From a virus, in the IMG/VR virus record IMGVR_UViG_3300046007_004432, positions 1 to 24,461 of that record: DNA of 24,461 nt. The stretch is one strand, 5' to 3'. Under the pieces are notes generated by a model. It did not search any database. It saw only the letters and a program-made list of their open reading frames with translations, and had not been told where the DNA came from. Both the position numbers and the translations under genes were made by a program. The stretch's first letter is position 1, and every line of letters starts with the position of its first letter. Shown here piece by piece: positions 1 to 24,461 of the stretch.

Positions 1-1
1 A

Positions 2-304
2 CAAGAGGACCATGACACCTTTTACCATAGGTTTCCCATTAGGGATAGCCTTCCTCAGAAATGGGAACCCGCAACCGAGTTCGAGGACACTTTAGTCCTA
101 GTGGACACTGAGCGGGGCCAGTCAGCGGCTAGGCTCGTGGTCCATAGTGTCACTAACGGGAACCGTTACCAGATGTTCTTTGCTGACTTCGTGAAGATGC
201 TCAAGCAGATTGACATGCACAAGGGTATCTTTACCGGACGTTTTTTGCCGTGCAAGAAGGGAAGCAACTACGCTATCCAGTGGTTGGGGAAACCGAATGA
301 GTGA
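2..304 (+). CDS. Hypothetical protein, 5'-truncated by the window edge
   Basis: The frame is open from the first bases of the window to a TGA at 302-304, so the gene starts upstream of what is shown. A GTG at 101 is a possible internal start, but the 33 codons before it read as normal protein (for example RDSLPQKWEPATEF), so I take the gene as truncated. The visible 100 residues are mixed alpha/beta and end in KGSNYAIQWLGKPNE. I recognise no motif, signal peptide or membrane segment. It overlaps the next gene by 8 bases in an ATGAGTGA junction, which suggests translational coupling. Function unknown. Confidence 0.6.
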   Translation, partial: QEDHDTFYHRFPIRDSLPQKWEPATEFEDTLVLVDTERGQSAARLVVHSVTNGNRYQMFFADFVKMLKQIDMHKGIFTGRFLPCKKGSNYAIQWLGKPNE

Positions 305-548
305 ACTAGGGCCACAGAAAAGACGTTTATCTTCCGCCGAGATTTTAGCAAAACTAGAAGTAACCGCAGTCCAATGGACCCACCTATTGCCCTGCCCGTT
401 CTGTGGCGGCGAAGCCGTCCCCTGTTACCAGAGAGATGATCTCGGGGACTGGAAGGTAGAGTGTACCGGCTGTGGGGCAGTCTCCTGCCCCGATGGGATG
501 CGGTATGATAGAGACTTGGCTATTGCTGACTGGAATAAAAGGGCTTAG
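297..548 (+). CDS. Lar-like zinc-ribbon protein (restriction alleviation family)
   Basis: An 83-residue protein with a CPFCGG knuckle near residue 37 and a second pair, CTGCGA, about 25 residues later. It ends in DLAIADWNKRA, the aromatic-Asn-Arg ending typical of Lar-family zinc ribbons (LxPCPFCGG...C..CGA...A...WN.R). In Rac prophage, Lar modulates type I restriction; most phage homologues are only assigned by similarity. I chose ATG 297 because it overlaps the upstream stop in the style used across this window; an in-frame ATG at 210 would overlap the upstream gene by about 95 bases. Its stop codon interlocks with that of the convergent PhoH gene. The family is fairly sure; the anti-restriction role is inferred. 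Confidence 0.7.
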   Translation: MSELGPQKRRLSSAEILAKLEVTAVQWTHLLPCPFCGGEAVPCYQRDDLGDWKVECTGCGAVSCPDGMRYDRDLAIADWNKRA

Positions 549-553
549 AGCCC
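532..553 (-). terminator. Rho-independent terminator of the leftward PhoH operon
   Basis: On the minus strand, GGGCT (complement of 549-553) pairs with AGCCC (complement of 541-545) around a 3-nt loop, followed by TTTTATTCC. The loop contains parts of the stop codons of both convergent genes (PhoH TAA at 545-547, Lar TAG at 546-548). The stem is only 5 bp, so efficiency is uncertain. On the plus strand no T-run follows, so it should work in one direction only. Confidence 0.5.
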
Positions 554-3099: not shown

Positions 3100-3135
3100 T
3101 TGTCGTCGGTGTAACCGACGCTATGATTACACCGA
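3100..3135 (+). promoter_or_regulatory. Promoter of the sigma-like gene with two competing hairpins
   Basis: TTGTCG (3100-3105), a 16-bp spacer and TATGAT (3122-3127). Two exclusive inverted repeats overlap it: CGTCGGT/ACCGACG (3104-3110 with 3114-3120) and TCGGTGTAA/TTACACCGA (3106-3114 with 3127-3135). A protein binding either palindrome would cover the promoter, so this looks like an operator in the divergent region between the leftward operon and the sigma-like gene. Factor unknown. Confidence 0.45.
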
Positions 3136-3652: not shown

Positions 3653-3993
3653 TGGTCCCCGGAATCCCAGAAGGCTACGAGTTAATCAGGATCGGGTATC
3701 CCGATCACGGGGAACTATATCTGAGATCAATGGGCGAAGTCATGCAACATGACTACAATAGTCCTCTGATGCTTTGCCCGGTGGCTATACTGCGAAAGAT
3801 TGAGAACAATTGGAAGCGATTGACCTTGGGTATGTGGGACGGGAAACCCCGTCCAGCTAGGTTTAGGCTGACTAGGCATGATCCTTGGGTTTACGGAGTT
3901 GTAGAGGACCATCGCCCGTTTGCGGGCTGGCGGTCCCAGAGTGGTTTATGGTTCAAACATTGTGAGGTGCAGGATGCCAAGAAAAATACCTAA
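3652..3993 (+). CDS. 'PEGYE' family small protein, paralogue A
   Basis: A 113-residue protein of unknown function that starts in a TAATG junction with the sigma-like gene. Its first 50 residues (IPEGYELIRIGYPDHGELYL, later AILRKIENNWKRLT) share the pattern PEGYE-x5-G/R-x-GEL...ILRK...W..LT with the genes at 16087 and 18896. These three define a paralogous family in this genome. The rest is Trp- and Arg-rich (DPWVYGVVEDHRPFAGWRS) and is not shared. No signal peptide or membrane segment. It overlaps the helicase start by 20 bases. Confidence 0.65.
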   Translation: MVPGIPEGYELIRIGYPDHGELYLRSMGEVMQHDYNSPLMLCPVAILRKIENNWKRLTLGMWDGKPRPARFRLTRHDPWVYGVVEDHRPFAGWRSQSGLWFKHCEVQDAKKNT

Positions 3994-5311
3994 ACCCCAC
4001 CAGCTAGAAGCTGTAGATTTTGCCGTAGCCAACGAGGGTCGCATCCTTATAGCCGACCCCGTGGGCATGGGCAAGACACTAAGTTGCGTGCTCTATGCCG
4101 AGAAACTCGACAAGTGGCCCATACTCATCGTATGTCCCCCTAGTGTCTTAGGTTCATGGAAACGAGAGTTTGAGTCCGAACTAAACCGCAAAGCGGTTAT
4201 TATTCGAGGCAAGGCCCTGTGCGAGGGCGAGCTACAGCATGACGCAGTTATCATTAACTACGACATCCTTGAGGCTCAGCGTGAATGGCTACTTGAACAG
4301 CGATTCGCGTTTATGATTTTCGACGAATGCGACAAGCTATCTAACCGCAGTACCCAGTGGACCAAAGCGGCAATGGCGATTGCTCGCACTTGCCCCAGGG
4401 TCATGGGAATGAGCGGAACGCCACTGGCTAATCGCCCTAGCGATTTCTTTAGTATCCTACACATGATTCGCCCTAGCGAATTTCCGTCTGCCCAAGAGTA
4501 TATGTGGCGGTATTGTGATCCCAGGTATGATGACCGTTTTGGGTGGAACTATCAGGGCGCAACGAATTTAGCTGAGCTACATGAACGGATCAAACCGTTT
4601 ATGCTCAAGCGAGACAAAGCCATCCTAAATCTACCGCCCCAAAGCATCAAGATCGATTTTATCGAAATGGATGACATGGACACCTATCAACTGTTGCACA
4701 AGCAGTACATAGGCGCAATTAAACGGAACAATCCGTTTCAAAACAAAGGTATCGACAAGCTGACACTGTTGACCAACTTGTTGATGCTAGTAGCTCGTCT
4801 AAAAGCGAGGGGTGTAGTCAAGTGGATTCGTAAGTTCCATGAAGAAAACCCTACAGAAAAACTGATCGTATTCTGCACACACACCCAGATGATTGATGTC
4901 ATCCAGCGGCGAGCCGCTGCTGAAGGGGAATCCATTGTCATCCAGGGTAATGTCCCCGCTGCCAAACGTACTGTAGCAGTAGACACATTCCAGAACGATC
5001 CCAAGGTATGGTTGGCAGTCATCAATATAGCCGCAGGTGCGGCAGGAATAACCCTGACGGCAGCCAAGACCATTGCAGTAGCGGAGCTACCTTGGACTGC
5101 TCGGAGCGTTACACAGCTATCGGGCCGAACCGACCGAATAGGACAGCAGCGAGAGAACGAAGTCATATTCCTTTTAACCCAAGATACCATAGAGGCAAAA
5201 CTTTGTCAGACTATCCAGACCAAGGCGGGGATTCACGAGCAAGTGATAAATGGGACCAAGACGAACACACTGCCTCTGCATCGGATGCTGGAAGAGTCCT
5301 TAATGCAGTAA
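3974..5311 (+). CDS. SNF2-type superfamily 2 DNA helicase/ATPase
   Basis: A 445-residue protein with a complete SF2 core. Motifs in order: ADPVGMGKT (motif I, residues 27-35), PILIVCPPSVLGSWKREF (Ia), MIFDECDKL (DExx box near 117), MGMSGTPLANR (III), LIVFCTHTQMIDVI (IV), VINIAAGAAGITLTAAKTI (V) and QLSGRTDRIGQ (VI). Spacing and the 'SWKREF' and 'GRTDRIGQ' wording are typical of compact phage SNF2/Rad54-like translocases. It likely remodels DNA or protein-DNA complexes during replication or recombination. I chose ATG 3974 for the GAGG about 7 bases upstream. It ends normally at TAA 5309-5311; the following frame is open and lacks a start. Confidence 0.85.
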   Translation: MPRKIPKPHQLEAVDFAVANEGRILIADPVGMGKTLSCVLYAEKLDKWPILIVCPPSVLGSWKREFESELNRKAVIIRGKALCEGELQHDAVIINYDILEAQREWLLEQRFAFMIFDECDKLSNRSTQWTKAAMAIARTCPRVMGMSGTPLANRPSDFFSILHMIRPSEFPSAQEYMWRYCDPRYDDRFGWNYQGATNLAELHERIKPFMLKRDKAILNLPPQSIKIDFIEMDDMDTYQLLHKQYIGAIKRNNPFQNKGIDKLTLLTNLLMLVARLKARGVVKWIRKFHEENPTEKLIVFCTHTQMIDVIQRRAAAEGESIVIQGNVPAAKRTVAVDTFQNDPKVWLAVINIAAGAAGITLTAAKTIAVAELPWTARSVTQLSGRTDRIGQQRENEVIFLLTQDTIEAKLCQTIQTKAGIHEQVINGTKTNTLPLHRMLEESLMQ

Positions 5312-5535: not shown

Positions 5536-6224
5536 TGATGAGCCGATACGTTGCCTGCCTTATTTTCTTGCTATTCATTTTCCTACTCGCCAAAGGTGTT
5601 TTCGGAGTAGACCCAGAAAAGAATGGCGTCTTCCGCATCAGAACCCCCGAGCAGAGCCAAGGCACTGCCTTTGCCATTGAGCAGATAGGCGACAAGGTTT
5701 ACCTAGGAACCGCTGCCCATGTCGTTTTAATGGACAATGGCATGATGTTCCAGGGGGCGTCCTACACGCTGGAGAACGATACCATCAAGGACATGCCTAA
5801 TGCCAAGGTGTCCGCTGTGGACGTTAAGGCAGATGTCGCAGTCATCCAGTGTACTACTAGCAAGCGGTTTGAACTGCTTGCTTTGGTCGATGTAGCCGAG
5901 GATCTACGAGTAGATAAAATTGGCTTTAGCTATCAGCCCAGTAACGTGAAAGTCACGTTCTATGGGTTCGGTAGCGGAAATTGGCTAGAAACTTCTGGAA
6001 AAGTGTCCTTTACTACCAGAGAATCGGTGTATAGTGATTCTGTAGTAGCTTCCGGCCAGAGCGGCGGTCCCGCCGTTATAGACACTGGGATCATCGGCGT
6101 AGTGTCAGGGGGTTCCGAATGGTATCCGGCAGCAGAACACACAGAGCGTAATGTTACATGGCCAGCAAGAGCGGGCTCCGCTCGGCGGCTCAAAGAACTA
6201 TTGGAATGGGCGAAGAAACAATGA
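5535..6224 (+). CDS. Predicted exported trypsin-like serine protease
   Basis: A 229-residue protein. The N-terminus MMSRYVACLIFLLFIFLLA is a clear hydrophobic signal sequence or membrane anchor, with a possible cleavage site near VFG. The mature part has the chymotrypsin-fold triad: His in YLGTAAHVV, Asp in KADVAVIQ and Ser in ASGQSGGPAV, with IIGVVSGG after it. It begins in TAATG and ends in ATGA with the next gene, so it is embedded in the operon. Phage proteases are usually cytoplasmic capsid proteases; an exported trypsin-like one in a replication-region operon is unusual. It may act in the host periplasm or cell surface. Substrate unknown. Confidence 0.75.
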   Translation: MMSRYVACLIFLLFIFLLAKGVFGVDPEKNGVFRIRTPEQSQGTAFAIEQIGDKVYLGTAAHVVLMDNGMMFQGASYTLENDTIKDMPNAKVSAVDVKADVAVIQCTTSKRFELLALVDVAEDLRVDKIGFSYQPSNVKVTFYGFGSGNWLETSGKVSFTTRESVYSDSVVASGQSGGPAVIDTGIIGVVSGGSEWYPAAEHTERNVTWPARAGSARRLKELLEWAKKQ

Positions 6225-7278: not shown

Positions 7279-7280
7279 CT

Positions 7281-7589: not shown

Positions 7590-7644
7590 CTTCGATGAAT
7601 AGGTTTGGTTGTACCCGCGACGGCAAGATCCGGCAGAACAACAC

Positions 7645-8283: not shown

Positions 8284-9150
8284 ATGCTTACAGAGTTCCT
8301 TGATAAACATGGAGTGGAATGGTCCAAGACGGACAAGCACTCTCGCCATTCCTGGACGCAGGCACGTCCCTGTCCCCGGTGTTCCAACGACCGATTCCAC
8401 CTAGGTATCAAGGACGATTTTTCACGTTCATCATGTTATACCTGTGGGTCGTTTCACGTCCCTAAGTTACTAAAAGACCTGACCGATGCCCCGTGGTCGG
8501 AAATCTACAAACTGCTCGGTTCCCGAGCCTATCTACCCAAGGAAGCGGATACCGCTTCTAAGGGCGTTTACACGCCTCCTACGCTACTTCAGCCGCTTGA
8601 GGCTGTACCTGCCGTAGCTGCCTATCTGAAGCAGCGTAGCTTCGATTTAGAGTACCTGGAGACGGTCTGGGGAGTCCGGGCAACCGGACCATTCAGCAAT
8701 TACCCGTTCCGGGTGTTCATGCCCATATACCTGAACCGCAAAGCGGTTAGCTGGACGGCTAGGGCCGCGTGCGGCCAAGAGCCGAGGTATCGCAACGCCG
8801 GTCCCGGCGAAAAGTCTATAGACGAAAAAACTTTGCTTTTTGGGGCACAGTTCGTCAAGGATACGTGTATCATTTGCGAGGGACCAACGGATGTGTTCAG
8901 GGTGGGCAAAGGTTGCGTAGCAACCCTAGGCGTGTCATACACTATGGCACAAGTGGATCGTCTCGCCAGTATATGGCGTAGGATCATCTGCTTTGACAAT
9001 AGTGAAAATGCACAGCGTAGGGCAAATAAGCTAGCCGCTGAATTATCTGTATTCCCAGGAGAAACTATTGTGGTAAATTTGGACGCGGAAGACCCAGGCT
9101 CGGCATCCGAGCAAGAGGTCCGGCAACTACGGAAATTGGCAGGACTATGA
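8284..9150 (+). CDS. DnaG-type DNA primase
   Basis: A 288-residue primase. A zinc-binding domain with CPRC (C30, C33) and CYTC (C51, C54) recognises template DNA. A TOPRIM-type catalytic region has CEGPTD (E199, D203), then ICFDNSENAQRRANKLAAEL and NLDAEDPGSASE with its acidic residues. It lacks the DnaB-binding C-terminal domain of bacterial DnaG and is short even for phages, like other minimal phage primases. The DnaB-type helicase gene follows after the HNH insert, so primase and helicase were probably adjacent before the insertion. It should make RNA primers at the phage fork. Confidence 0.85.
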   Translation: MLTEFLDKHGVEWSKTDKHSRHSWTQARPCPRCSNDRFHLGIKDDFSRSSCYTCGSFHVPKLLKDLTDAPWSEIYKLLGSRAYLPKEADTASKGVYTPPTLLQPLEAVPAVAAYLKQRSFDLEYLETVWGVRATGPFSNYPFRVFMPIYLNRKAVSWTARAACGQEPRYRNAGPGEKSIDEKTLLFGAQFVKDTCIICEGPTDVFRVGKGCVATLGVSYTMAQVDRLASIWRRIICFDNSENAQRRANKLAAELSVFPGETIVVNLDAEDPGSASEQEVRQLRKLAGL

Positions 9151-9155
9151 TTTTC

Positions 9156-9184: not shown

Positions 9185-9186
9185 GC

Positions 9187-9248: not shown

Positions 9249-9926
9249 ATGGCTAAGTACATTGTACACAATGGTATTCACATTGCAAGCGAATTTACCC
9301 CCGAGACGTTTGATCGTCTGACTACAATCGGACCCAAGTTCAAAATAGGTAAGCATAGGTATCAGGTTTGCCAATGCTCCTGTAGCACCCAAGGCTATGT
9401 CATCCGTAGGACAGATGTGTTAAAGGCAGGACAGAACCAAAGTTGTGGGTGTTTATGTAAAGAACTGCTAATCGAACGAAACACTACGCACGGACAGTCG
9501 TACCGTTCAGAGATGGGGATTTGGCGAGGCATGATCTCTAGGTGCCACAATCCTAAGAATAAATCATTTAAGAGGTACGGTGGACGCGGAATCCGCGTCT
9601 GTGATCGGTGGAACGATCCTGTGCATGGCTATGCCAATTTCCTAGCAGACATGGGGCCGCGTCCCGGCCCAGAGTACAGCATTGATCGTTACCCGATTAA
9701 GAACGGTAACTATGAACTCGGCAATTGCCGGTGGGCAACCATGACAGAACAAAACCGAAACAGGAAAGACAATAGGATGCTTACAGCATTTGGAAGAACT
9801 CAGTGCATGGCTGCATGGGCAGAAGAGTTTGGGGTCACTTCTGGTTTGATCTACCGCAGACTGAAAGAAGGATGGGGACTGTCCGATGCGATAAGCAAGC
9901 CGCCAAGGAGAAACCCATGCAAGTGA
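9249..9926 (+). CDS. HNH-type homing-endonuclease-like protein, copy 2
   Basis: 225 residues, the same length as copy 1 and similar throughout. Cys pairs (C41/C43/C45 and C66/C68/C70) suggest a zinc ribbon. IWRGMISRCHNPKNKSF, YGGRGIRVCDRW, SIDRYPIKNGNYELGNCRW and EQNRNRK form the intact HNH-family nuclease block. The C-terminus (AAWAEEFGVTSGLIYRRLKE) looks like the DNA-binding modules found at the ends of homing endonucleases. It lies exactly between primase and helicase, and its last codons carry the AAGGAG ribosome binding site of the helicase gene. Copy 1 appears diverged in the nuclease motif; this copy looks active. The mobile nature is inferred. Confidence 0.85.
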   Translation: MAKYIVHNGIHIASEFTPETFDRLTTIGPKFKIGKHRYQVCQCSCSTQGYVIRRTDVLKAGQNQSCGCLCKELLIERNTTHGQSYRSEMGIWRGMISRCHNPKNKSFKRYGGRGIRVCDRWNDPVHGYANFLADMGPRPGPEYSIDRYPIKNGNYELGNCRWATMTEQNRNRKDNRMLTAFGRTQCMAAWAEEFGVTSGLIYRRLKEGWGLSDAISKPPRRNPCK

Positions 9927-11308
9927 CCCAAGTAAAAGGAACGGAAGAACAGCTAGCATTAGTAGCCCTGTGCTTAGACACCGAGGTACTATCCAGGGTT
10001 GTGGACGCTTTGCCCGAATCGCCGTTTGCTGCCAAAGTATCTAATTTGGTGTACAACTGGTGCCGGAAGCACTATGCCGAATACAAGGAAGCCCCTGGGG
10101 CAGTATCGCTTACTGCGATCTATGCCGAATGGGCGAATACTGCTGACGAGGCTACGTCCTCGCTGGTCGGTAAATTTCTTTCGTCATTGAGCCCCACGCA
10201 ACTAAACCCGGACTATGCTGTCTCGCTTATAGAGAGGCTAGTTGTCCGCCATTCGGCAAAGCAACTAGCCGATAGGGTTCAGGCGGCGTTAGCCAACGGC
10301 AACGTCCAAGCAGCCACAGACACTATCAAAACATGGCAACCTCCAACATTGACTGCCGATGTTGACTACCTAGACCCCATCAATGACCCTTCTATTATTG
10401 CCCAATCCCATACAGCGGCTAATTATGAGCCTTTGATTAAGTTCAAAGAAGGCACTGCAATCAGCCGGTGGTTTGGGCCTACGTTGCACCGGGATGCGTT
10501 AGTGGTTCTGTGTGGTGCGGATAAGTCAGGCAAGTCCAGCCATCTGACGAACTTATGCCAAAGGGCATTACTTCAGGGAAAGCGTGTCGCTTTCTTTAAT
10601 CTGGGTGACTTGAGCACAGAGCAAATGCTGAAGCGATGGACTACTGGATTTGTAGGCAAGTCCGAATTTGCTGGCAAAATCAAGATTCCCACAAGTCTGA
10701 AGTACGAAAACAAAGAATTTTCTTTGGAATACTTAGAGAAGTACCAGAAATCTGCGTATACTACTGACGAGGCAAGCGAAGCGTGGGCTAAGCTAAGAGA
10801 CCCAGCAGGCGAGTGCCTAATCCGTTTTATCACAAGACCAGCCCGAACCATGACAGTAGAAGATTTACACAAGACACTACTGGGATGGGCAAACAAGGGA
10901 TGGGTTCCTGATGTTATCGGAATCGACTACGCTGCTTTGCTTGGGTTTAGCCGGGGCTTTGAAAAAAGCCATGAGGCGATAGAACATGCGTGGTCTAAGC
11001 TTAGGGCTATTAGCAGCGAGTTCAAGTCTCTTGTGCTTACTGCTAGCCAAGTCAACGCAGATGCTTACCACGGTAGCACTTATTGGCTAACGCAATCGTC
11101 ATTCACTGGGAGCAAATCCATTTGGGCGTATGCTAATGCCTGCTTGGGACTAAACGCGACCGTAACGGAGAGAGACCAACAGATCACAAGAATGAATTGG
11201 ATAGTCCTGCGAGAGCGGAACTATCTGTCACAACTACCATCGTCTTATTTGGCTGTGGGAGGAGCACCTCTCCTTGGCCGTTTTCACCTTATTTCGGAGT
11301 TTATTTAA
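9917..11308 (+). CDS. DnaB-type replicative helicase
   Basis: A 463-residue RecA-fold helicase. Walker A is GADKSGKS (200-207), Walker B VIGIDYAALL (from 333), and LVLTASQVN is the motif preceding the DNA-binding loop. The N-terminal about 180 residues are a divergent helical collar-like domain. It should unwind DNA at the fork with the primase encoded upstream. AAGGAG at 9905-9910 decides ATG 9917; the start overlaps the HNH gene by 10 bases. The usual C-terminal 'SRxxE' wording is altered (TGSKSIWAYANA instead), common in divergent phage DnaB proteins. Confidence 0.8.
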   Translation: MQVTQVKGTEEQLALVALCLDTEVLSRVVDALPESPFAAKVSNLVYNWCRKHYAEYKEAPGAVSLTAIYAEWANTADEATSSLVGKFLSSLSPTQLNPDYAVSLIERLVVRHSAKQLADRVQAALANGNVQAATDTIKTWQPPTLTADVDYLDPINDPSIIAQSHTAANYEPLIKFKEGTAISRWFGPTLHRDALVVLCGADKSGKSSHLTNLCQRALLQGKRVAFFNLGDLSTEQMLKRWTTGFVGKSEFAGKIKIPTSLKYENKEFSLEYLEKYQKSAYTTDEASEAWAKLRDPAGECLIRFITRPARTMTVEDLHKTLLGWANKGWVPDVIGIDYAALLGFSRGFEKSHEAIEHAWSKLRAISSEFKSLVLTASQVNADAYHGSTYWLTQSSFTGSKSIWAYANACLGLNATVTERDQQITRMNWIVLRERNYLSQLPSSYLAVGGAPLLGRFHLISEFI

Positions 11309-14316: not shown

Positions 14317-14543
14317 TGCCATCGATAGAAGTCGCCAAGGGCGACCTATTGAACCTGCGAAGGCAGGTTTACATGCGGCTGTGGGAGTTGAAAAACACCC
14401 CTGCCTACAAAGACCCGGTAAACAGGGAATGGCTCATGCCCGAGGTGACGGCACTTAGCAAGTTCATCCGAAAACTCAATAGAGCCTGCGTGCAGGCTTA
14501 CGGACACGATTGTCACGCAGACCTTTACCCTTCAGAGGATTAA
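14316..14543 (+). CDS. Hypothetical protein
   Basis: A 75-residue protein in a TAATG junction with the polymerase gene (MPSIEVAKGDLLNLRRQVYM to HDCHADLYPSED). It is helical with a basic central segment (KFIRKLNRACVQAYGHDCH) and two Cys and two His near the end that might bind metal. No family recognised. An in-frame ATG at 14223 lies inside the polymerase gene and is rejected. Confidence 0.55.
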   Translation: MPSIEVAKGDLLNLRRQVYMRLWELKNTPAYKDPVNREWLMPEVTALSKFIRKLNRACVQAYGHDCHADLYPSED

Positions 14544-14544
14544 C

Positions 14545-15111
14545 ATGCAATTACCACACATGATAGGTATGGCCGGACCCCAAGGCTCTGGCAAAGACAC
14601 TTGCGGCGAGATACTCGCCCAAAGATATAACTACATCCAAATGGCTTTTGCCAACCCAGTCCGTGCCGGACTCTATGCTCTGAACCCTCTGATTGTGCTA
14701 GACAACGGAATCGTTGCACGATTACAGACGGTCGTAGATCAGATCGGCTGGGATTCCGCGAAGCGGAATAGCAAGGACTTACGGGGTCTGATGCAACGCT
14801 TCGGAACCGAAGCTGGGCGAGACCTACACGGGTACAATTGCTGGGTGAACATTGCGGAGCGGGCTACTAAAGCAAACAGAAACTTTACGTTCACCGATGT
14901 TCGGTTCCCGAACGAAGCAGACTTCATTCGATCCTGCGGCGGGATCATCGTTTACGTTGACAGGGACGATGTACCAGTACAGGCAGCGAATCACAAGTCC
15001 GAAGAGTACGATGTCAAGGAAGACGCAGACTTCATTATCTTCAATAATGGTACTCTCCCGGAGCTAGGTGCCCAATTGACCCAGATCATCAAAGCCTGGA
15101 ACTTAGTATGA
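14545..15111 (+). CDS. Deoxynucleoside monophosphate kinase
   Basis: A 188-residue P-loop kinase. MAGPQGSGKDT (about residues 9-19) is the Walker A with the Asp typical of phage dNMP kinases, followed by QRYNYIQMAFANPVRAGLY, LRGLMQRFGTEAGRDLHGYN (cap and substrate region) and FTDVRFPNEADFI (the DVRFxNE motif of this family, as in T4 gp1). It phosphorylates dNMPs to dNDPs to supply phage replication. The C-terminus overlaps the clamp loader start by ATGA. The family assignment is strong; the nucleotide preference cannot be told. Confidence 0.85.
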   Translation: MQLPHMIGMAGPQGSGKDTCGEILAQRYNYIQMAFANPVRAGLYALNPLIVLDNGIVARLQTVVDQIGWDSAKRNSKDLRGLMQRFGTEAGRDLHGYNCWVNIAERATKANRNFTFTDVRFPNEADFIRSCGGIIVYVDRDDVPVQAANHKSEEYDVKEDADFIIFNNGTLPELGAQLTQIIKAWNLV

Positions 15112-16037
15112 CCTACCACATTAAATACCGACCAAGCACACTAGCCACCGTATTTGGGCAACCGCAAGCGGTTAAGCAGTTACAGGGCTTCCTAGACGCT
15201 TCCAGCGTCCCACAGGTCTTAGGCTTCTATGGTCCCCCAGGGACCGGGAAGACGACCCTAGCCCGCATTATGGCTAAGGAAGTTGGGGCGACCGCTATGT
15301 CGGTCAACGAGATAAATGTCGCTGATAAGAACGGCGTAGAGGATGTGCGGAAGCTACGGGACGATGCGGCTATGAAGCCGTTAGGGTCCAAAGTGTCTGT
15401 CTTCATCCTAGATGAAGCCCATAGCTTCTCCAAGCAAGCTTTCCAAGGCTTGCTCAAGCTGTTCGAGGATACCCCTAAGCATTGCTACTTCTTTCTGTGT
15501 ACCAGCCAGCCGGAGAAGATCGACAAGGCAATCAAGACCCGTATTACGGGTATCGAACTCAAGGCAGTATTTGAAGCAGAATTAGTCAAGCTAATACAGA
15601 GCGTAGCTACCTGCGAGAACATTGAATACCGAGAAGGCGACTTCAAAGCTATTGCTAAGGCAGCCAAAGGTTCCGCTCGGAACGCTCTGGTGTACTTGAA
15701 TCAGATGCAAGCCTGCGGCTTCGATAGGTCCGTGTTAGCGGACCTAGCCAATAGCGTAGACGAGAAGCATAACGCCTTTCCGCTGTGTTCGTTGCTTATG
15801 TGGCCCAAAGCAGGCAAGTGGGGCGAACTATACGCCCTAGTAGATGCTGTAGAAGACGAGGAACTGGAAGCAGTTCGCTGGATGTTGCTGCGGTATGCAG
15901 CCAGTTGTATGAAGGATGCGAAAAACTGCGTGCCTGCTCGCAATGTGATCGAATCAATGGCTTCGCCATTCTTCGATTCCAAGAAACCAGGATTTTTGGC
16001 AAAATGTTCTGCTATCTGGTCAAAGAACGGTGTATAG
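15108..16037 (+). CDS. AAA+ clamp loader subunit (DnaX/gp44-like)
   Basis: A 309-residue AAA+ protein: KYRPSTLATVFGQ (the YRP start of clamp loaders), YGPPGTGKTT Walker A (42-50), FILDEAH Walker B (102-105), and KAIKTRITGIEL as sensor 1 with the trans-acting Arg. GSARNALVYLNQM is sensor 2-like. The usual SRC motif reads TRI here, which suggests an altered arginine finger. As no second loader gene is seen, it may form a homomeric loader for the clamp at 22370. It loads the sliding clamp at primer ends. Confidence 0.85.
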   Translation: MTYHIKYRPSTLATVFGQPQAVKQLQGFLDASSVPQVLGFYGPPGTGKTTLARIMAKEVGATAMSVNEINVADKNGVEDVRKLRDDAAMKPLGSKVSVFILDEAHSFSKQAFQGLLKLFEDTPKHCYFFLCTSQPEKIDKAIKTRITGIELKAVFEAELVKLIQSVATCENIEYREGDFKAIAKAAKGSARNALVYLNQMQACGFDRSVLADLANSVDEKHNAFPLCSLLMWPKAGKWGELYALVDAVEDEELEAVRWMLLRYAASCMKDAKNCVPARNVIESMASPFFDSKKPGFLAKCSAIWSKNGV

Positions 16038-16885: not shown

Positions 16886-16921
16886 TTTTCTTTCCGCCTT
16901 TCTTTAGGAGTGTTCTACACT

Positions 16922-17752
16922 ATGTCAGATATGTCCTTTGACGACATCCCCGAGGGCCGGGGTTCCGGCTCGATGTACTTTACGATTGATATTGGCCAAG
17001 GCAAAGAGCGGCTGAAGATCGACCGCGAATCCACAATGACTGCGATCATTGTCCCCTATATCACAACTTGTTCACGCACCAAGAAGCCCGGCGACATGCA
17101 CTTCATGCGGGATTACTTCCTCTACCGAAACCTCGGTCCAGAGCAAAAGGATTCCTACTTCGATTGCGTCCAGACTTTCGGTGAGAAGTGCCCAATCGGG
17201 GACTTTGCCAAGCAGGCAGGTGCCAAGATGGTTCCGCAACGCAAAGCGTTGTTTAACCTCTTTGTCGTCGATATCGACGGCGTAGAAGTCAACAAGCCCT
17301 ACGTGCTTGACCACTCTTTCGCCAACTTCGCAGCAGTGCTGCGTATGGCGGCTGAGAACAAGAGCAAGCGTCGAGGACAAGAGAACGCTAAGTTCTTCAT
17401 GTCCCCAGACAAGGGCTCCTATGTTACTTGGTCTTGGAAGGAAGATACCTTCAACCGAAACAAGTTCTATGTCGCAGCAGACTTTGACTTCTCGCCACAC
17501 AACGGCTTCGACGGCAAGATGCCTGAACTGATTGCAGGTGCAGTCGATTTGGACAAGGCTCTGAACAAGCTACCGTATGACGAAGCGAAGGCTCGCTTCA
17601 TTGACGGCTTTGTGGCGGCTCCCGCCGCACCTGCTGCGGACCCCGCAGCCAAGTCCACTCCTAAGCCTAATGCTCCCGTAGCCGATGCTGCGGTTGCCGC
17701 AGCCGTGGAAAAGGCAAAGGACGATGCTCCGTTCGATGCCGGTTGGGAATAG
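16922..17752 (+). CDS. Single-stranded DNA-binding protein (gp32-like)
   Basis: A 276-residue protein. The core has Cys and His residues (PGDMHFMRDYF, FDCVQTFGEKCPIGDF) in the place of the zinc site of phage gp32-like SSBs, followed by a beta-rich segment (ALFNLFVVDIDGVEVNKPYV) and a long Ala/Pro linker. The end, DDAPFDAGWE, is an acidic tail of the type SSBs use to recruit partners. AGGAG at 16906-16910 decides ATG 16922 over a GTG at 16910. The linker contains three hairpins with 7-bp stems (17582, 17633, 17687). A terminator follows directly, so this is probably a highly expressed, separately ended transcript. Confidence 0.7.
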   Translation: MSDMSFDDIPEGRGSGSMYFTIDIGQGKERLKIDRESTMTAIIVPYITTCSRTKKPGDMHFMRDYFLYRNLGPEQKDSYFDCVQTFGEKCPIGDFAKQAGAKMVPQRKALFNLFVVDIDGVEVNKPYVLDHSFANFAAVLRMAAENKSKRRGQENAKFFMSPDKGSYVTWSWKEDTFNRNKFYVAADFDFSPHNGFDGKMPELIAGAVDLDKALNKLPYDEAKARFIDGFVAAPAAPAADPAAKSTPKPNAPVADAAVAAAVEKAKDDAPFDAGWE

Positions 17753-17772: not shown

Positions 17773-17799
17773 AGCCCCGCGAAAGCGGGGTTATTTTTT
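17773..17799 (+). terminator. Rho-independent terminator after the SSB gene
   Basis: CCCCGC (17775-17780), GNRA-type loop GAAA, GCGGGG (17785-17790), extended by A-T and G-T pairs, then TTATTTTTTG. It lies 20 bases after the SSB stop and 23 bases before the RecA start. Much SSB transcription should stop here, so RecA needs read-through or its own promoter, of which I see no clear example. Confidence 0.85.
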
Positions 17800-17821
17800 G
17801 TACCTACTAGAGAAAGAAAAC

Positions 17822-18892
17822 ATGGCAAAGAAAGCAATACAGCAACTAGACGAAGCAATGGAATCCCTAGAGGCATCGGCAGTTTCACTGCCAGAGCCCA
17901 ACTTGAGCCTAGGGTCCGATGTTATGGACATCCACGTCTCGGGAACCCCCGGAAAGGCCGTGTCCCCCGGCATGTTCCTATGGTTCCACGGGAACTCGGG
18001 ATCAGGCAAGTCCTTCCATGCTAAGTTACTTATGGCGGAAGCCGCCAACAATCCAGCCTATGATAATCACCGGCTCGTCATTTTCGACGGCGAGAACGGC
18101 TCCAACTTCGACTGCGAAGAGTTCTTCGGTCAGAAGATGGCTGATAGGATCGAAGCTATGGAAGTCCCCAGCCTTGACCACCTCTATGACGCCTTGGACG
18201 CTTTAGCGTCCGAACCGTTTATTGGAATCGTAGATTCTTGGGATTCCTGGTTGCCGCACGCGGCTATTAAGAAACTGGACGATGACATCAAGAAGCGATC
18301 ACAGGATAAGGAAATCGATGGCTCATACGGAATGGAGCATGGTAAGATTCACAGCAACCGGCTTCGGCAGACGGTGCCTAAGCTAGTTAAGAGCAATAGC
18401 ATCCTGATTGGCGTCAGCCAGCACCGAGACAATGTGAACCGAGCTAATCCCTATTCGCCCAAGGACGTAGTGCCCGGAGGCCGGGCTTTGAAGTTCTGGT
18501 GCCACCTAGAACTTGAAATGGCCATAGCAGGCCAAATCAAGAAGGACATCAAGGGCAAGGAAATCCCCATCGGCGAAGAGATTCAGATTACGGTACGAAA
18601 GAACCGTGTGAACGGTTTAAGGCTGAACTTCCGGGAGCACTTCTACCCAACCTACGGGATTGATAACATCGGCTCTACGATTGCTTGGTTGCAGGAGAAC
18701 AAGTACCTAGTGCCTGCCGGGGGTCGTTACACGACCGACTTTACCGGGGACAAGGGCTACTACCTAAATGCCTTCATTGAAAAGATTTTGGCAGAAAATA
18801 AGGAACCGGAGCTACAGAAGCTCTTGGTTTCGGCGTACACTGATTACATGACTCATTTGGACATTTCCCTTTCACGCAAGAAGAGGTACTAG
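17822..18892 (+). CDS. RecA/UvsX-like recombinase
   Basis: A 356-residue recombinase. Walker A is GNSGSGKSF (57-65), VIFDGENGSNFD holds an acidic strand, PFIGIVDSWDSW is Walker B, ILIGVSQHRDNV carries the motif before the DNA-binding loop, and DVVPGGRALKFWC matches the loop L2 region (GG.ALKF). RecA-family filaments pair homologous DNA. The N- and C-terminal extensions differ from bacterial RecA, as in T4 UvsX. I take ATG 17822; an in-frame start at 17798 lies in the terminator T-run. It follows the UvsY-like and SSB genes, as a recombination cluster. Confidence 0.85.
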   Translation: MAKKAIQQLDEAMESLEASAVSLPEPNLSLGSDVMDIHVSGTPGKAVSPGMFLWFHGNSGSGKSFHAKLLMAEAANNPAYDNHRLVIFDGENGSNFDCEEFFGQKMADRIEAMEVPSLDHLYDALDALASEPFIGIVDSWDSWLPHAAIKKLDDDIKKRSQDKEIDGSYGMEHGKIHSNRLRQTVPKLVKSNSILIGVSQHRDNVNRANPYSPKDVVPGGRALKFWCHLELEMAIAGQIKKDIKGKEIPIGEEIQITVRKNRVNGLRLNFREHFYPTYGIDNIGSTIAWLQENKYLVPAGGRYTTDFTGDKGYYLNAFIEKILAENKEPELQKLLVSAYTDYMTHLDISLSRKKRY

Positions 18893-19401: not shown

Positions 19402-20227
19402 CTTCGTCCTGCTGGACGTGTCCAACCTCGCCCACCGAGCCCTACATACCGTTAGCAATCTCAGGCACCCAGACAACCCTGAGATGCCTACCGGCATCCT
19501 GTACCAGATAGGGCAGACTGCCGAGAAGCTACAGCATATCTATTCGACGTGGAACGTCGCTTTCTTCTTTGACAGTCGGCAAAGCCGACGCAAGGAAATC
19601 TGCCCCGAGTACAAAGCGACTCGGGAAAAGATGAGAGCGGCGGAACCCGCCGATATGCAGCAGGCTAGACAGGATATGTACGAGCAGGTCAATGCCCTGC
19701 CTAAGCTACTGAAGGACATGGGATGTGTCAACATCTTTGGTCAGACGGGCTATGAGGCAGATGACCTTATCGCTTCAGCGATCCGAAACAATCCTGACAA
19801 GGATTTTGTAGTCGCGTCCCGCGACCAAGACTTGTATCAGCTATTGTCTCCCTCGGTCAAATTATTTGACCCCCAGACTAAGGCGGAGTACACGGAAGCA
19901 GACTTCTGGAAGGAATGGGACATCCAACCTACGCAGTGGTCTAGTATCAAGGCATGGGCTGGCTGCGTCAGCGATAACGTCATTGGGATCAGGGGAGTAG
20001 GCGAAAAGACTGCGGTGAAATTCCAGCGAGGAAAGCTACCACAGGAAAGTGCTAAGTATTCTTTGTTTATGGACAACTTGGCGGTGTATACTAAGAACAT
20101 TGAACTGGTCCGCTTGCCCCTGAAAGGGGCTATGGACGTGAAGTTAGTAGTGCAGGACACCCCTATCAAGTGGGGTGTCCTTGCGGAACATATTGGTGCT
20201 GTAACCTTTGGATGGGAGATGGAATGA
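19388..20227 (+). CDS. 5'-3' exonuclease (FEN/Pol I N-terminal type)
   Basis: A 279-residue protein with the FEN signature: LLDVSNLAHRA, AFFFDSRQSRRKEICPEYKA, TGYEADDLIAS, FVVASRDQDLYQLL and CVSDNVIGIRGVGEKTA (helix-hairpin-helix). The acidic residues of the two-metal site are present. It removes RNA primers and 5' flaps, the work of T4 RNase H or T7 gp6. ATG 19388 is the first plausible start, overlapping the membrane protein gene by 14 bases. It contains a 9-bp hairpin at 20155-20180 near its 3' end. Confidence 0.85.
   Translation: MNSNNFVLLDVSNLAHRALHTVSNLRHPDNPEMPTGILYQIGQTAEKLQHIYSTWNVAFFFDSRQSRRKEICPEYKATREKMRAAEPADMQQARQDMYEQVNALPKLLKDMGCVNIFGQTGYEADDLIASAIRNNPDKDFVVASRDQDLYQLLSPSVKLFDPQTKAEYTEADFWKEWDIQPTQWSSIKAWAGCVSDNVIGIRGVGEKTAVKFQRGKLPQESAKYSLFMDNLAVYTKNIELVRLPLKGAMDVKLVVQDTPIKWGVLAEHIGAVTFGWEME
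20155..20180 (+). repeat. 9-bp perfect hairpin near the exonuclease 3' end
   Basis: GGACACCCC (20155-20163) pairs with GGGGTGTCC (20172-20180) across an 8-nt loop. It lies about 45 bases before the stop and is followed by no T-run, so it is not a terminator. It could slow ribosomes or exonucleolytic decay near the junction with the next gene. Confidence 0.55.
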
Positions 20228-20571
20228 AAAAGTCAGAGATTCGGCGTATCAAAGTAATCATCGACAAGCAAAACAAGATCAAGGAAGCCGCCCGCATTAA
20301 GCGGAATATCCGCTTGCTGGGCCTACGGGAAATGCGGCTAAGTGCAGAAGAGGCGAAACGCCTGCCTAAGCTACGCAAGGGTCGCAGCCGGATTAAGGAC
20401 AGGCACCTGATGCAGATGGTCCTAGGGTCGCTCAGCGACCGCTGGTTGGAGGAATACAATGCCAGGGGTATTACCCCTGCCGATGTTGACAACATGGTTA
20501 AGGACCGCCCTGCGGTCTTGGCAAAGCTGAAAGCTTTTGGGGTAGCTGTTGACGAGGTGCAAGGTGGGTAG
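20224..20571 (+). CDS. Hypothetical basic protein
   Basis: A 115-residue protein starting in an ATGA overlap with the exonuclease. The N-terminal half is very basic and helical (KSEIRRIKVIIDKQNKIKEA, then LRKGRSRIKDRHL), consistent with nucleic-acid binding; the C-terminal half is less charged (GITPADVDNMVKDRPAVLAK). No domain recognised. It overlaps the nuclease start by 8 bases. Confidence 0.55.
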   Translation: MKKSEIRRIKVIIDKQNKIKEAARIKRNIRLLGLREMRLSAEEAKRLPKLRKGRSRIKDRHLMQMVLGSLSDRWLEEYNARGITPADVDNMVKDRPAVLAKLKAFGVAVDEVQGG

Positions 20572-21555: not shown

Positions 21556-22380
21556 ATGACTTGGGAAAAGCTACCTAACTGTAAACTAGGGCAAGGCGAC
21601 TGCCTTGAGTTGATGAAGGGGATACCGGAGGGTATGGTAGATTTGACTGTTACCAGTCCTCCGTATGACAATCTCCGCACCTACAACGGCACGTTGGAGT
21701 GGGGAGAGCATGTATGGAAGCCTGTACTAGAATCGCTGTTCCGTGTAACCAAGGTTGGAGGCGTCGTGGTCTGGGTAGTGAATGACGCCACGATCAAGGG
21801 AAGCGAAACGGGAACCAGTTTTCGACAGGCGTTGTACGCCAAGGAAATTGGGTTCAATCTACACGATACGATGATTTGGCATAAACCGAACCCAATACCA
21901 AGAACGCACAACAGGTACGAGCAGGCGTTTGAGTTCATGTTCGTGTTCGCAAAGGAATCCCCTAAAGCGTGGAATCCCATAAAAGTACCGAGCAAACTAG
22001 CAGGAAAAAAAAGAACAGGGACCATACAAAAAGACGCTAGCGGAAAACGAAGCGAAAAGAACCTTGGTGGCTGCGTAGCAGCCACCAAGCAAGCAGCGAA
22101 TGTTTGGAGTATGGTCAATGGCGAAAAGTCTGAGCACCCTGCCGTATTCCCTCTAGCCTTGGCACAAGACCACATCCTATCCTGGTCCAACGAGAACGAC
22201 GTAATCCTTGACCCGTTCCTCGGTTCCGGCACTACCGGAGCAGCCTGCGTAAATCTCAATCGCCGATTCATCGGCATCGAGAAGGACGCCACGTACTTCG
22301 CCATAGCGAAGGATCGGATACAAAAGGCAATCGACGCTAAAGCGTCCACCAAGTCAGAGGAAACACCAGATGCAGTTTAA
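21556..22380 (+). CDS. DNA methyltransferase (beta-type, SPPY)
   Basis: A 274-residue methyltransferase. VDLTVTSPPYDNLRTYNG holds catalytic motif IV (SPPY, residues 34-37) and DPFLGSGTTGAACVNLNRRF near the C-terminus is motif I for S-adenosylmethionine. Motif IV before motif I gives the beta order; SPPY is most common in N4-cytosine enzymes and some N6-adenine ones. No partner restriction gene is nearby, so it is probably an orphan that protects phage DNA. ATG 21556 is chosen over 21511, which would overlap the GNAT gene. A 12-bp perfect hairpin lies in its coding sequence at 22063. Confidence 0.85.
   Translation: MTWEKLPNCKLGQGDCLELMKGIPEGMVDLTVTSPPYDNLRTYNGTLEWGEHVWKPVLESLFRVTKVGGVVVWVVNDATIKGSETGTSFRQALYAKEIGFNLHDTMIWHKPNPIPRTHNRYEQAFEFMFVFAKESPKAWNPIKVPSKLAGKKRTGTIQKDASGKRSEKNLGGCVAATKQAANVWSMVNGEKSEHPAVFPLALAQDHILSWSNENDVILDPFLGSGTTGAACVNLNRRFIGIEKDATYFAIAKDRIQKAIDAKASTKSEETPDAV
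22063..22089 (+). repeat. 12-bp perfect hairpin within the methyltransferase gene
   Basis: CTTGGTGGCTGC (22063-22074) pairs exactly with GCAGCCACCAAG (22078-22089) around loop GTA. The 27 bases are nine whole codons for LGGCVAATK, between motif IV and motif I. It is the longest hairpin in the window and has no T-run after it. It could be an operator for autoregulation by the enzyme, or an RNA structure. Confidence 0.7.
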
Positions 22381-23395
22381 CCGACAAACCCTGCTCAGGA
22401 TCTTAGAGTCCTGCTCAGCAGGACTAAACACCAAAGACTCAGCGGAGCAGAGTTCCTGCTTCGTTTTCAACGAAGGCATAGTCACGACATACAACGGCGA
22501 GATCCTGTGCCAAGCGTTGCTCTGCAACGACGAGGGAGAGAAGCTAATGTGCCACGGTGCTTTGCCTGCAAAGCCTTTGGTTGAGACTTTAAGGAAATCA
22601 CCGGACGAAATGCTGAACGTCGTAGCCGAGGAATCGTCGATAACGATTAAGGGCACTGGACGTAAGCAACGCCTAACCATGTCCACCGATGTTCTACTCG
22701 ACATTAGCGAAGTTGAGCAACCGTCCGTATTCACGGACCTGCCTCCTGTGTTCAGTGAGGCACTAGCCTTAGCGGCGGGTATAACCGCCAAGAAGGACGA
22801 TAACTTCGCCCTTAACTGCATAGCCGTAACCCCCAAAGGGTTGCAGGCAACTAATAGGCATCAAGCCCTACGCTACCTAGTAGCCACGGGCAGGGATGCT
22901 GGGACCGTGCTTGTACGAGGCGAAAGCATCAAGCCGGTCACCGGACTAGGACTCGCTAAAGCGAGCTATGGTACTGAGTTCGTTTGGTTTCAGACCTACT
23001 CGGGCACTAAGGTCGCTGTGCGACTACTAGATGCTGAGTACCCGAATCTATCGGAGATATTCTCCCAAGAGACTGTGGCTGAGTTCGAGATGCCTCGAAC
23101 CGTAGCCGATGTAGTCCAGAGAGCTATTCCGTTCGTAGCTGAGAATGCCTCGGGTAAGATAGTCGAAGTTCGCCTAGCGGACCATGTGCTTACGGTGCGT
23201 GCACAGAACGCCTATGGTGACTTCTACGAAGAGAAGCAGGTTACCTATGCCGGGAAGCCGATAGGCTTCACTATGAATCCAGAGTCCTTGGCAGAGTTGC
23301 TTAGGTCCAATGGTAAAATTGAAGTAACGCCAGCGTCCTTACGGACCAAGGGCGATGGGTATTGTTTGGTCGTAAGTGCAGAGGTGGAAGTATGA
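22370..23395 (+). CDS. Sliding clamp (DNA polymerase III beta-like)
   Basis: A 341-residue protein, close to the length of bacterial DnaN (about 365). Repeated beta-alpha segments fit three clamp domains: CFVFNEGIVTTYNGEILCQA with LPAKPLVETLRKSPDE, then ALALAAGITAKKDDNFALNC with GLQATNRHQALRYL (the DnaN 'TD.hRL' position), and VRLLDAEYPNLSEIF, followed by FTMNPESLAELLRSNGKIEV. It encircles DNA and tethers the polymerase; the loader is encoded at 15108. ATG 22370 overlaps the methyltransferase stop by 11 bases. Similarity to DnaN is by fold pattern rather than identity. Confidence 0.65.
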   Translation: MQFNRQTLLRILESCSAGLNTKDSAEQSSCFVFNEGIVTTYNGEILCQALLCNDEGEKLMCHGALPAKPLVETLRKSPDEMLNVVAEESSITIKGTGRKQRLTMSTDVLLDISEVEQPSVFTDLPPVFSEALALAAGITAKKDDNFALNCIAVTPKGLQATNRHQALRYLVATGRDAGTVLVRGESIKPVTGLGLAKASYGTEFVWFQTYSGTKVAVRLLDAEYPNLSEIFSQETVAEFEMPRTVADVVQRAIPFVAENASGKIVEVRLADHVLTVRAQNAYGDFYEEKQVTYAGKPIGFTMNPESLAELLRSNGKIEVTPASLRTKGDGYCLVVSAEVEV

Positions 23396-23736
23396 CCGAA
23401 ATGCCCAATCCCCAGAAGTACGAGCAGAGGGAGTGTCGGGATTACGAAGTAGTCGTATCTGACCGGATTGCACTTGCTCAGATAGCTGTCAAAGTATTAG
23501 ATAACATAATGCTAAAGCAGGCATATCCGGTCATTAGTGACCGGATGGATGCGCCCGAGATCCCGTTGACCGCACAAGAGCACAGCACCTTAGATTCCGC
23601 TTTGCGGTATCTACAGAGGCAGTTCGACGACGGACATCGAGATACTTCGGTAGAACCGAAGCGGGTCGAAAAGATCAATGTCCTAGAGTACCCAACACCA
23701 AGCCCTGCTGAAGCAACCACTCCTGCGAGTTCGTAA
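23392..23736 (+). CDS. Hypothetical protein
   Basis: A 114-residue acidic protein (MTEMPNPQKYEQRECRDYEV to SPAEATTPASS) starting in an ATGA overlap with the clamp gene. It has a helical middle (IALAQIAVKVLDNIMLKQ, STLDSALRYLQRQFDDGH) and a Pro/Ala/Thr tail that is probably disordered. No domain recognised. It contains a 9-bp hairpin (23525-23546) and a 7-bp one (23645-23661), and overlaps the next start by TAATG. Confidence 0.55.
   Translation: MTEMPNPQKYEQRECRDYEVVVSDRIALAQIAVKVLDNIMLKQAYPVISDRMDAPEIPLTAQEHSTLDSALRYLQRQFDDGHRDTSVEPKRVEKINVLEYPTPSPAEATTPASS
23525..23546 (+). repeat. 9-bp perfect hairpin in coding sequence
   Basis: ATCCGGTCA (23525-23533), loop TTAG, TGACCGGAT (23538-23546). 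No T-run follows. With the hairpins at 20155 and 22063 it is among the three longest stems in the window. Confidence 0.6.
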
Positions 23737-24461
23737 TGTTCCAGTTTTTTTCGACTTCCCCAGAATCCAAGCCTAGATCACTCCTACCGGAGTGTCAGGC
23801 TTGTGGATTGCTTAGGCAATGCAACCACGGGAAACAGGCACCTGTTCGCAAGGGCAAGACGGTTATCATCGTCAATGGCCCCGGCGAAGACTCACCTAAA
23901 GGTCTTGCCAAGCAAGACAAGCTGGACGGAGTTCTCCGTCGCTTCGGTCTGTCCTCGGATGAGTTCACCTTGATTCCCGCTGCTGCTTGCCCGGTAACGG
24001 GCGCGGAGCCTAAGAATACCCCGTGGCAGCATTGTCAGCCGCTAATGATTCATGAGATCAAGAAGCTGAATCCAGAGAAGATCATAGTCTATGGGAAGCG
24101 AGCACTCGCTTCTGTGGTGCAATGGCTCTGGGGAGAGCCTGCCGGTTTACCGGATAACTGGTACGGGCGTAGGATTCCCTCTCGGGAATTGAACGCTTGG
24201 GTATTCCCGGTCGGAGCTAAGGGCATCCAAGCTAATCCCAAGGTAGCCCAGATTTATTTGTACAAGGGCCTTGACATGGCCCTGAAGCAAGAGGGTCGTC
24301 CCTACGACCATGTGCCTGACTATGGTAAAATGGTTAAGATTTCCTATGACGAAGACGAGATTCGGCGTATGCTGGCTAAAGCCAGCCAGTCGCCCCTGTC
24401 TGCGCCTGACTATGAAACCAATTGCCTGAAGCCAGAGAAGCACCGCAGCAAGGTCTATACC
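23736..24461 (+). CDS. UDG-like domain with start of a 3'-5' exonuclease (split polymerase N-terminal part), 3'-truncated
   Basis: The frame opens with ATG in a TAATG junction and stays open to the window end (242 codons). The first 190 residues resemble family 4-like uracil-DNA glycosylases: a Cys cluster CQACGLLRQC, VIIVNGPGEDSPKG (the GE.PG-like motif), LIPAAACPVTGAEPKNTPW and LNPEKIIVYGKRALASVV. After a linker, SAPDYETNCLKPEKH is exonuclease motif I (D-x-E), as in DnaQ-like proofreading domains. UDG-like plus exonuclease is the N-terminal arrangement of some phage family A polymerases; here the polymerase part is a separate gene 10 kb upstream. Glycosylase activity is not certain, since such domains can be structural. 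Confidence 0.75.
   Translation, partial: MFQFFSTSPESKPRSLLPECQACGLLRQCNHGKQAPVRKGKTVIIVNGPGEDSPKGLAKQDKLDGVLRRFGLSSDEFTLIPAAACPVTGAEPKNTPWQHCQPLMIHEIKKLNPEKIIVYGKRALASVVQWLWGEPAGLPDNWYGRRIPSRELNAWVFPVGAKGIQANPKVAQIYLYKGLDMALKQEGRPYDHVPDYGKMVKISYDEDEIRRMLAKASQSPLSAPDYETNCLKPEKHRSKVYT

Follow-up and report, generated by a model that had tools for sequence, protein, structure and literature searches.

Dense short perfect inverted repeats in the coding DNA of one phage clade and their possible maintenance by weak selection on single-stranded DNA folding

The promoters of the N4 virion RNA polymerase are DNA hairpins with a 5-7 bp stem and a 3 nt loop that are read single-stranded; they number a handful, are conserved in sequence, and lie upstream of genes. 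Secondary structure that runs genome-wide through coding sequence in viruses or bacteria is ascribed to mRNA-level selection. The closest precedent for the elements described here, short perfect hairpins in phage genes, is the coding palindromes of Nematomorpha mitochondrial DNA, which are few and long, with a mean of 43 bp, arms of up to 142 bp, and an average distance of 37 bp (PMC6649704; PMC10380579), and which are 'binary', perfect repeats occurring without an excess of imperfect ones (PMC6649704). Template-switch (quasi-palindrome) mutagenesis also makes perfect stems and inverts loops, in scattered events (PMC8794818, PMC8604942). Here we analyze the whole IMG/VR record IMGVR_UViG_3300046007_004432 (24,461 bases, hereafter the window), a fragment of a tailed phage genome of ~65-70 kb. 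We give about even credence to the reading that the clade to which it belongs carries hundreds of short perfect Watson-Crick inverted repeats per genome that act as DNA hairpins, work on single-stranded DNA (ssDNA), and are kept by weak selection. We found no phage precedent for dense coding hairpins in the open-licence literature, and a nucleotide search of named phages returned no relative of the window. All genomes compared are metagenomic and possibly incomplete, their genes were called as simple open reading frames (ORFs), and they are referred to by G and L numbers where they have to be told apart.

Across the window, perfect stems of at least 6 bp with 3-4 nt loops number 119, against 10.4 in dinucleotide shuffles, and those of at least 7 bp number 28, against 3.2. 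Broken down by loop size, the stems of at least 6 bp amount to 38, 73, 46, and 30 for loops of 2, 3, 4, and 5 nt, compared to 4.8, 4.6, 5.8, and 5.6 in the same shuffles. An initial annotation of the window, made by eye, had claimed such an excess for 3-4 nt loops; the excess holds and all 16 stems that it listed are present at their exact coordinates, but its totals (16 at 7 bp or more, about 48 at 6 bp or more) were undercounts. It had also named codon-preserving shuffles as a check. When synonymous codons were permuted within each gene, so that both the protein and the codon use were kept, 144 stems of at least 6 bp with loops of 2-5 nt were observed versus 23.7 +/- 5.2 (the maximum of 100 shuffles being 35), and 31 stems of at least 7 bp with loops of 2-4 nt versus 4.6. 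Codon usage and amino acid content therefore do not explain the excess. Conservation in close relatives, which the annotation had likewise singled out, is evident as well: of ~126 hairpin centres present in the window or in a relative 92% identical to it, 94 occur in both. The total span of 314 non-overlapping stems of at least 5 bp peaks at 15-16 nt, and the excess is limited to ~13-18 nt; at loop sizes of ~20 nt, the window showed no hairpin excess over dinucleotide shuffles. Loopless palindromes of 8 bp or more are strongly depleted across the window (29 versus 88 expected).

Hairpins occur in all genes of the window and between genes, and their density in the clade genomes is approximately one per 150-200 bases. 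No regular spacing or helical phasing was found, the spacing being random apart from non-overlap. Among 1912 hairpins, 1757 fall within predicted ORFs, and the density is 5.6 per kb inside ORFs and 6.7 per kb outside. We rejected a tie to intergenic regions or promoters on account of this similar density, and we rejected intrinsic terminators as a class, since most hairpins lie within ORFs and few of them qualify. The statement that the hairpins are not followed by T-runs is accurate for nearly all of them, the exception being the intergenic hairpin at 17775-17790 (CCCCGC-GAAA-GCGGGG, then TTATTT), which is identical in L003 and is probably an ordinary terminator.

The trait is confined to one phage clade. 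The excess runs the full length of two long relatives, with 340 versus 65 stems in G001 (66 kb) and 388 versus 69 in G002 (70 kb). From a PolA-based search we kept 80 loci and scored those with usable coordinates. All 14 loci with a PolA at least 57% identical to that of the window have stem counts of 3.5-10 relative to control, whereas the 60-odd loci at 41% identity or less stand at 0.2-1.5, apart from one short contig at 3.1. This contig, L076 (6.3 kb, 38% PolA identity, 16 stems versus 5.2), is the sole such value outside the clade and is too short to judge. A PolA tree of 33 sequences unites the hairpin phages in a single group with 100/100 support. Ratios to control in other phages were 0.9 for T7, 0.9 for Cellulophaga phi17:1, and 1.3 for Vibrio KF3. 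A moderate excess of tight hairpins, with terminators counted in, was observed in N4 (L054, 2.0) and in Aeromonas phage AhSzq-1 (L056, 2.5).

Stem length is specific to the lineage, being 6-8 bp in some lineages and 8-15 bp in two separate branches. In the lineage of the window, enrichment peaks at 6-7 bp (5.1-fold at 6 bp, 6.0-fold at 7 bp, and 3.1-fold at 8 bp). In L015/L066 and L059/L065, stems of 6 bp reach only about twice the expected number, and there are 27-79 stems of 9-11 bp where ~0.5 would be expected; the PolA tree does not place these two long-stem groups as sisters. The genes of lineage IV contain 63 stems of at least 10 bp, compared to 0.3 in codon-preserving shuffles. As a side observation, most 7-bp hairpins with 2-nt loops in G008 (L047-L050) have the loop TA flanked by C, and are thus 16-bp palindromes centred on CTAG.

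The stems are also perfect. For six pairs and a 3-nt loop, perfect stems number 73 in the window and 6.9 in control geometries. A single mismatch at arm positions 2-5 gives 22, 17, 18, and 25 stems, where the controls give ~18.5 each. In lineage III, the perfect stems number 41 versus 2.7, and those with one interior mismatch 4, 4, 5, and 4 versus ~5; a small one-mismatch excess is present in G001 and G002. Overall, the excess among near-perfect stems is little, and a benefit or a process that requires complete pairing is implied. An apparent G.T excess among the one-mismatch stems of the clade, seen in a first wobble count, was dropped after a refined count showed that A.A and T.T were raised too, and a directional test was used instead.

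The arms evolve slowly. We compared close pairs of genomes (the window and G002, G009 and G002, and pairs within lineage III), with hairpins defined in one genome of each; these pairs are few and share genomes, hence they are not independent. Arm divergence in them is ~0.39 of the background, and the reduction is seen at third (0.049 versus 0.132), first (0.016 versus 0.040), and second (0.011 versus 0.023) codon positions. Compared to complementary 6-mers placed 20-80 nt apart, hairpin arms diverge 0.37 times as much (0.0230 versus 0.0629), and the same 6-mers outside hairpins diverge by 0.0630. The constraint weakens with loop size, divergence being 0.026 for loops of 6-9 nt and 0.048 for loops of 10-19 nt. 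At longer range, 23 of the 145 window hairpins share their exact centre with a 73%-identical relative, where 0.4 would be expected, some of them through compensatory change (14658, 19638). Between the long-stem loci L059 and L065, which are more distant, 11 double changes in hairpins common to both preserve pairing and one breaks it; among these hairpins is a 15-16 bp stem at L059 7156 with three compensated pairs.

Excess and constraint can be related through a single parameter. The arm rate ratio of 0.387 equals S/(e^S-1) at S of ~1.7, which in turn predicts an e^S of ~5.4-fold excess, and 5.3-6.1 was seen over codon shuffles; the argument is a heuristic, inferred from the shuffle excess and the arm divergence. 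Because a one-parameter mutation-selection-drift balance fits both quantities, we favor weak selection and give template switching a minor part in producing hairpins, although our confidence in this choice is no better than even. Selection with a 2Ns of ~1.7 per hairpin, spread over some 350-430 hairpins per genome, would favor complete DNA-stable stems.

Several points weigh against this reading. Perfect coding stems of up to 15 bp without an imperfect excess are expected from a copying process too, and template switching does act here. Among 13 loops with at least two changes between close relatives, four are exact inversions (the window at 8514, G009 7312, G004 17759, and G010 11006), one of them in a 5-nt loop; the stems are kept at all four, one of them with a single broken pair. 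Near 8075, three adjacent changes complete a hairpin arm. In addition, the close pairs are few and overlapping, and the same numbers could be reached by tuning a lower local mutation rate together with additional hairpin creation. The event at 11006 in G010 (L052), an exact 5-nt loop inversion on a 10-bp stem relative to G006, is in its own right a clean case of natural template switching in a phage.

The alternative that survives best, which we nevertheless consider unlikely, is a purely mutational origin. According to it, stems are perfected and maintained by the replication machinery, which changes template inside short inverted repeats (quasi-palindrome conversion); the stems would be parasitic on replication and of no use, and the stem length of a lineage would reflect its copying tract. 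Such an origin has been argued likewise for the Nematomorpha mitochondrial DNA (PMC6649704), and it would account for the perfection without an imperfect-stem excess, the four loop inversions, the stems completed by multi-base changes in one arm, and the DNA energetics and strand symmetry described below. It sits poorly with arms that change less often than matched sequence. Unbiased conversion at the needed speed predicts that ~10% of third-/third-position pairs, or ~40 of 422, would be compensated in close relatives, whereas we observed 4 compensatory and 26 single changes; unbiased arm conversion as the sole cause was rejected for this shortage. Gains and losses of hairpins are mostly single substitutions (144 of 216), multi-pair changes confined to one arm (28 of 72, or 39%) are slightly above the 27% found in control stretches, and chance one-mismatch stems are not depleted.

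Mutational cold spots are a less probable explanation still. Here the arms would mutate less, for instance through error-free bypass via the other arm, and template switching would create the hairpins without any selection, in agreement with a reduction that is similar at all codon positions and for all types of change. However, a threefold lower loss alone yields a less than threefold excess, while 5- to 10-fold is seen, and more than 100-fold in lineage IV; two coupled mechanisms would also be required.

The initial annotation had suggested, as one possible role, that the hairpins armor mRNA against RNases or RNA-targeting defence. We judge mRNA structure, whether as armor or for translation control, to be very improbable, even though most hairpins lie in transcribed genes and RNA folding energy is below that of codon-shuffled genes too. 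RNA structure under selection is expected to spare G.U pairs. On the coding strand, however, arm changes that leave G.U number 47 versus 171 expected (0.28), those that leave A.C 56 versus 164 (0.34), and transversions stand at 0.36; for A-U pairs alone, changes to G.U and to A.C occur at 0.39 and 0.37 of expectation. The enrichment of base-pair steps tracks DNA nearest-neighbour energies (r of -0.91) more closely than those of RNA (r of -0.75). The most favored step is CG and the most avoided is TA, and the preference for CG over GC and GG is the reverse of RNA stacking. This step preference is gone in lineage IV, for which the control set is small, as expected if long stems are already stable enough. 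GNA triloops, whose stability in DNA is very high, are overrepresented by factors of 2.2 (coding strand) and 2.4 (template strand), whereas UNCG, the signature stable loop of RNA, shows no enrichment. The shift in folding energy is the same for the two strands, and hairpins are about as dense outside ORFs as within them. Given the rejection of G.U, the DNA-like stacking, and the GNA loops on both strands, the unit looks like a DNA hairpin, and, as far as sequence comparison can tell, the hairpins seem to matter at the DNA level and not as mRNA structure. GNRA-type loops are stable in RNA as well, thus the loop evidence alone is not decisive. Structure in replicating ssDNA, a second role suggested by the annotation, stands as the level at which the hairpins matter, the function itself being our inference.

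Its third suggestion, small mobile palindromes, finds no place among arms that are almost all different in sequence. The annotation had correctly noted that AACCGCAAAGCGGTT recurs at 4184 and 8734, and this 15-mer is the only one found to recur. A mobile REP-like family, or operator-like dyads recognized in double-stranded form by a dimeric protein, could draw on the weak arm consensus G..CG of the short-stem lineages; we consider both highly doubtful, since the differing arms are perfectly complementary, loopless palindromes are depleted, and the composition preference is lost in the long-stem lineage. Chance, codon usage, or assembly artefact, with no point in its favor, is practically dismissed by the codon-preserving shuffles, the independent metagenomes, and the conservation between relatives.

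Weak selection on DNA hairpins, the reading that we prefer, has a plausible setting in the gene content. The replisome genes of the window encode a PolA family polymerase, sliding clamp, clamp loader, DnaB-like helicase, Toprim-domain protein, and UvsX-like recombinase; its relatives add a terminase, portal, tape measure, and SbcC-like exonuclease. The product of 16910-17752 had no match among Pfam and PHROG profiles, and its likeness to gp32 was found by structure alone: the model has a mean predicted local distance difference test score (pLDDT) of 71.6, and its five best PDB matches are T4 and RB69 gp32 (E 1e-6 to 4e-4). On the basis of this model, the phage encodes its own gp32-like single-stranded-DNA-binding protein (SSB). 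Together with the UvsX-like recombinase, such a protein would point to the replication fork and to recombination intermediates as the natural setting. The least certain step of the proposal is that hairpins may act where phage DNA is present as a single strand, either at the fork or during recombination. Either strand could fold and thereby limit coverage by the gp32-like SSB and UvsX-like recombinase, or the access of ssDNA nucleases and ssDNA-sensing defences; dense small hairpins might interrupt cooperative coating, or shield the strands from nucleases or ssDNA sensors. Somewhat more tentatively than the reading given at the outset, we propose that a clade of double-stranded DNA phages keeps hundreds of individually weak hairpins by selection on ssDNA folding, as a structural code laid over the protein code. 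The stem length of this code would have shifted two or more times, and the code might be read by SSB and recombination proteins or help against ssDNA-directed defence.

Other features of these genomes were noted in passing. The family A DNA polymerase is split, and in G002 a separate 413-amino-acid gene (L018:185-1426) matches an upstream part of the same PHROG (positions 552-820). The only Rfam matches were tRNAs, which form a small cluster at 7195-7717 of the window comprising Leu (TAG), Glu (TTC), and Trp (CCA). Two stretches, 1572-1772 and 9145-9376, are alike and lie at or just before the starts of HNH endonuclease-like genes; G002 has two such places too, and these stretches look like a spreading homing-endonuclease family. 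A methyltransferase gene is duplicated in L015 (8298-9054 and 15173-15956), and three hairpins match exactly between the copies, inside long stretches free of differences. In a comparison of gene duplicates in lineage IV, the hairpins lie within tracts that are identical for other reasons. A search for prophages or hosts among 84,980 species genomes found no relative of the terminase. Coordinates of the hairpins and of the marker and ssDNA-related genes are collected in Table 1.

Table 1. Perfect hairpins and selected genes of the window
Coordinates	Strand	Feature	Basis or comparison
1..24461		Whole set: 152 perfect stems (6 bp or longer, loops 2-5 nt, none overlapping), within and between genes	
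474..491		7 bp perfect hairpin, loop TCTC	
3104..3120		7 bp perfect hairpin, loop GTA	
3690..3706		7 bp perfect hairpin, loop TAT	
3738..3754		7 bp perfect hairpin, loop CAA	G002 retains all but outer base pair
3837..3854		7 bp perfect hairpin, loop AAAC	G002 loop near-inverted (GTTC), same arms
4184..4198		6 bp hairpin AACCGC-AAA-GCGGTT	15-mer repeated at 8734; centre common to L003
4721..4738		7 bp perfect hairpin, loop ACAA	
5943..5959		7 bp perfect hairpin, loop AAG	
6169..6183		6 bp hairpin GAGCGG/CCGCTC	compensatory in G002: GGGCGG/CCGCCC
8514..8528		6 bp hairpin	loop exactly inverted in G002 (TTC to GAA), same arms
8542..8558		7 bp perfect hairpin, loop ATA	
8734..8748		6 bp hairpin AACCGC-AAA-GCGGTT	
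9583..9599		7 bp perfect hairpin, loop AAT	identical hairpin sequence at L013 4396
10578..10594		7 bp perfect hairpin, loop TGT	
11550..11566		7 bp perfect hairpin, loop TTA	one broken pair in G002
12919..14316	+	PolA-family DNA polymerase, polymerase half only, 465 amino acids	marker for trait phylogeny
14352..14369		7 bp perfect hairpin, loop GAAG	
14658..14672		6 bp hairpin AGTCCG/CGGACT	compensatory in L003: AGTGCG/CGCACT
14753..14769		7 bp perfect hairpin, loop GAA	centre common to L003
15401..15417		7 bp perfect hairpin, loop CTA	
15956..15970		6 bp hairpin AATGGC/GCCATT	compensatory in G002: AATGGT/ACCATT; centre common to L003
16910..17752	+	gp32-like single-stranded-DNA-binding protein, acidic C-terminal tail	structure model
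17582..17599		7 bp perfect hairpin, loop AGGC	
17633..17649		7 bp perfect hairpin, loop ACC	
17687..17703		7 bp perfect hairpin, loop TTG	one broken pair in G002
17798..18892	+	UvsX/RecA-like recombinase	
19638..19652		6 bp hairpin CGGCGG/CCGCCG	compensatory in L003: CGTCGG/CCGACG; one broken pair in G002
19855..19871		7 bp perfect hairpin, loop TTA	
20299..20315		7 bp perfect hairpin, loop ATA	
20463..20479		7 bp perfect hairpin, loop ATT	
22063..22089		12 bp hairpin, loop GTA, longest tight one; in methyltransferase-like gene	
22407..22425		8 bp hairpin, loop TCA	L003 identical
22459..22475		7 bp perfect hairpin, loop TTC	
23083..23100		7 bp perfect hairpin, loop ATGC	
23525..23546		9 bp perfect hairpin, loop TTAG	
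23645..23661		7 bp perfect hairpin, loop AGA	
23902..23918		7 bp perfect hairpin, loop CAA	
24095..24112		8 bp hairpin GAAGCGAG-CA-CTCGCTTC	L003 identical

If selection is the cause, these genomes contain a genome-wide second code in protein-coding phage DNA that acts on ssDNA and has a measurable coefficient, and one could search for the gene or host trait responsible, given how sharply the trait switches on and off in the phage tree. If template switching is the cause, they are a natural laboratory, with very strong effects, for a mechanism that has long been put forward as the maker and keeper of hairpins in RNA genes and hairworm mitochondria. With either cause, the question of why coding DNA holds perfect palindromes, left open for hairworms, becomes testable in a phage.

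Compared to the Nematomorpha palindromes, the phage hairpins are likewise perfect inverted repeats in conserved coding sequence, with hairpin geometry and with gain and loss between relatives, and they also lack an imperfect-repeat excess in the window and in lineage III, although G001 and G002 have a small one. They differ in having stems of 6-8 or 8-15 bp, hundreds per genome, with tight loops and a lineage-specific length, in belonging to tailed double-stranded DNA phages and not to hairworm mitochondria, and in that arm constraint was measured and compensatory conversion is scarce. With template-switch products they share loop inversions with intact arms; however, the phage hairpins are pervasive, and their arms are slower and show fewer compensatory changes than conversion predicts. 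Similar to mRNA-level coding structure, they recruit synonymous sites, but their stems are short, local, perfect, intolerant of G.U, and strand-symmetric. In contrast to REP/BIME mobile palindromes, they include no dispersed family of similar sequences. They resemble the N4 promoters in being small DNA hairpins in a phage, whereas they comprise hundreds of unrelated sequences within genes, and N4 itself has only a 2.0-fold excess.

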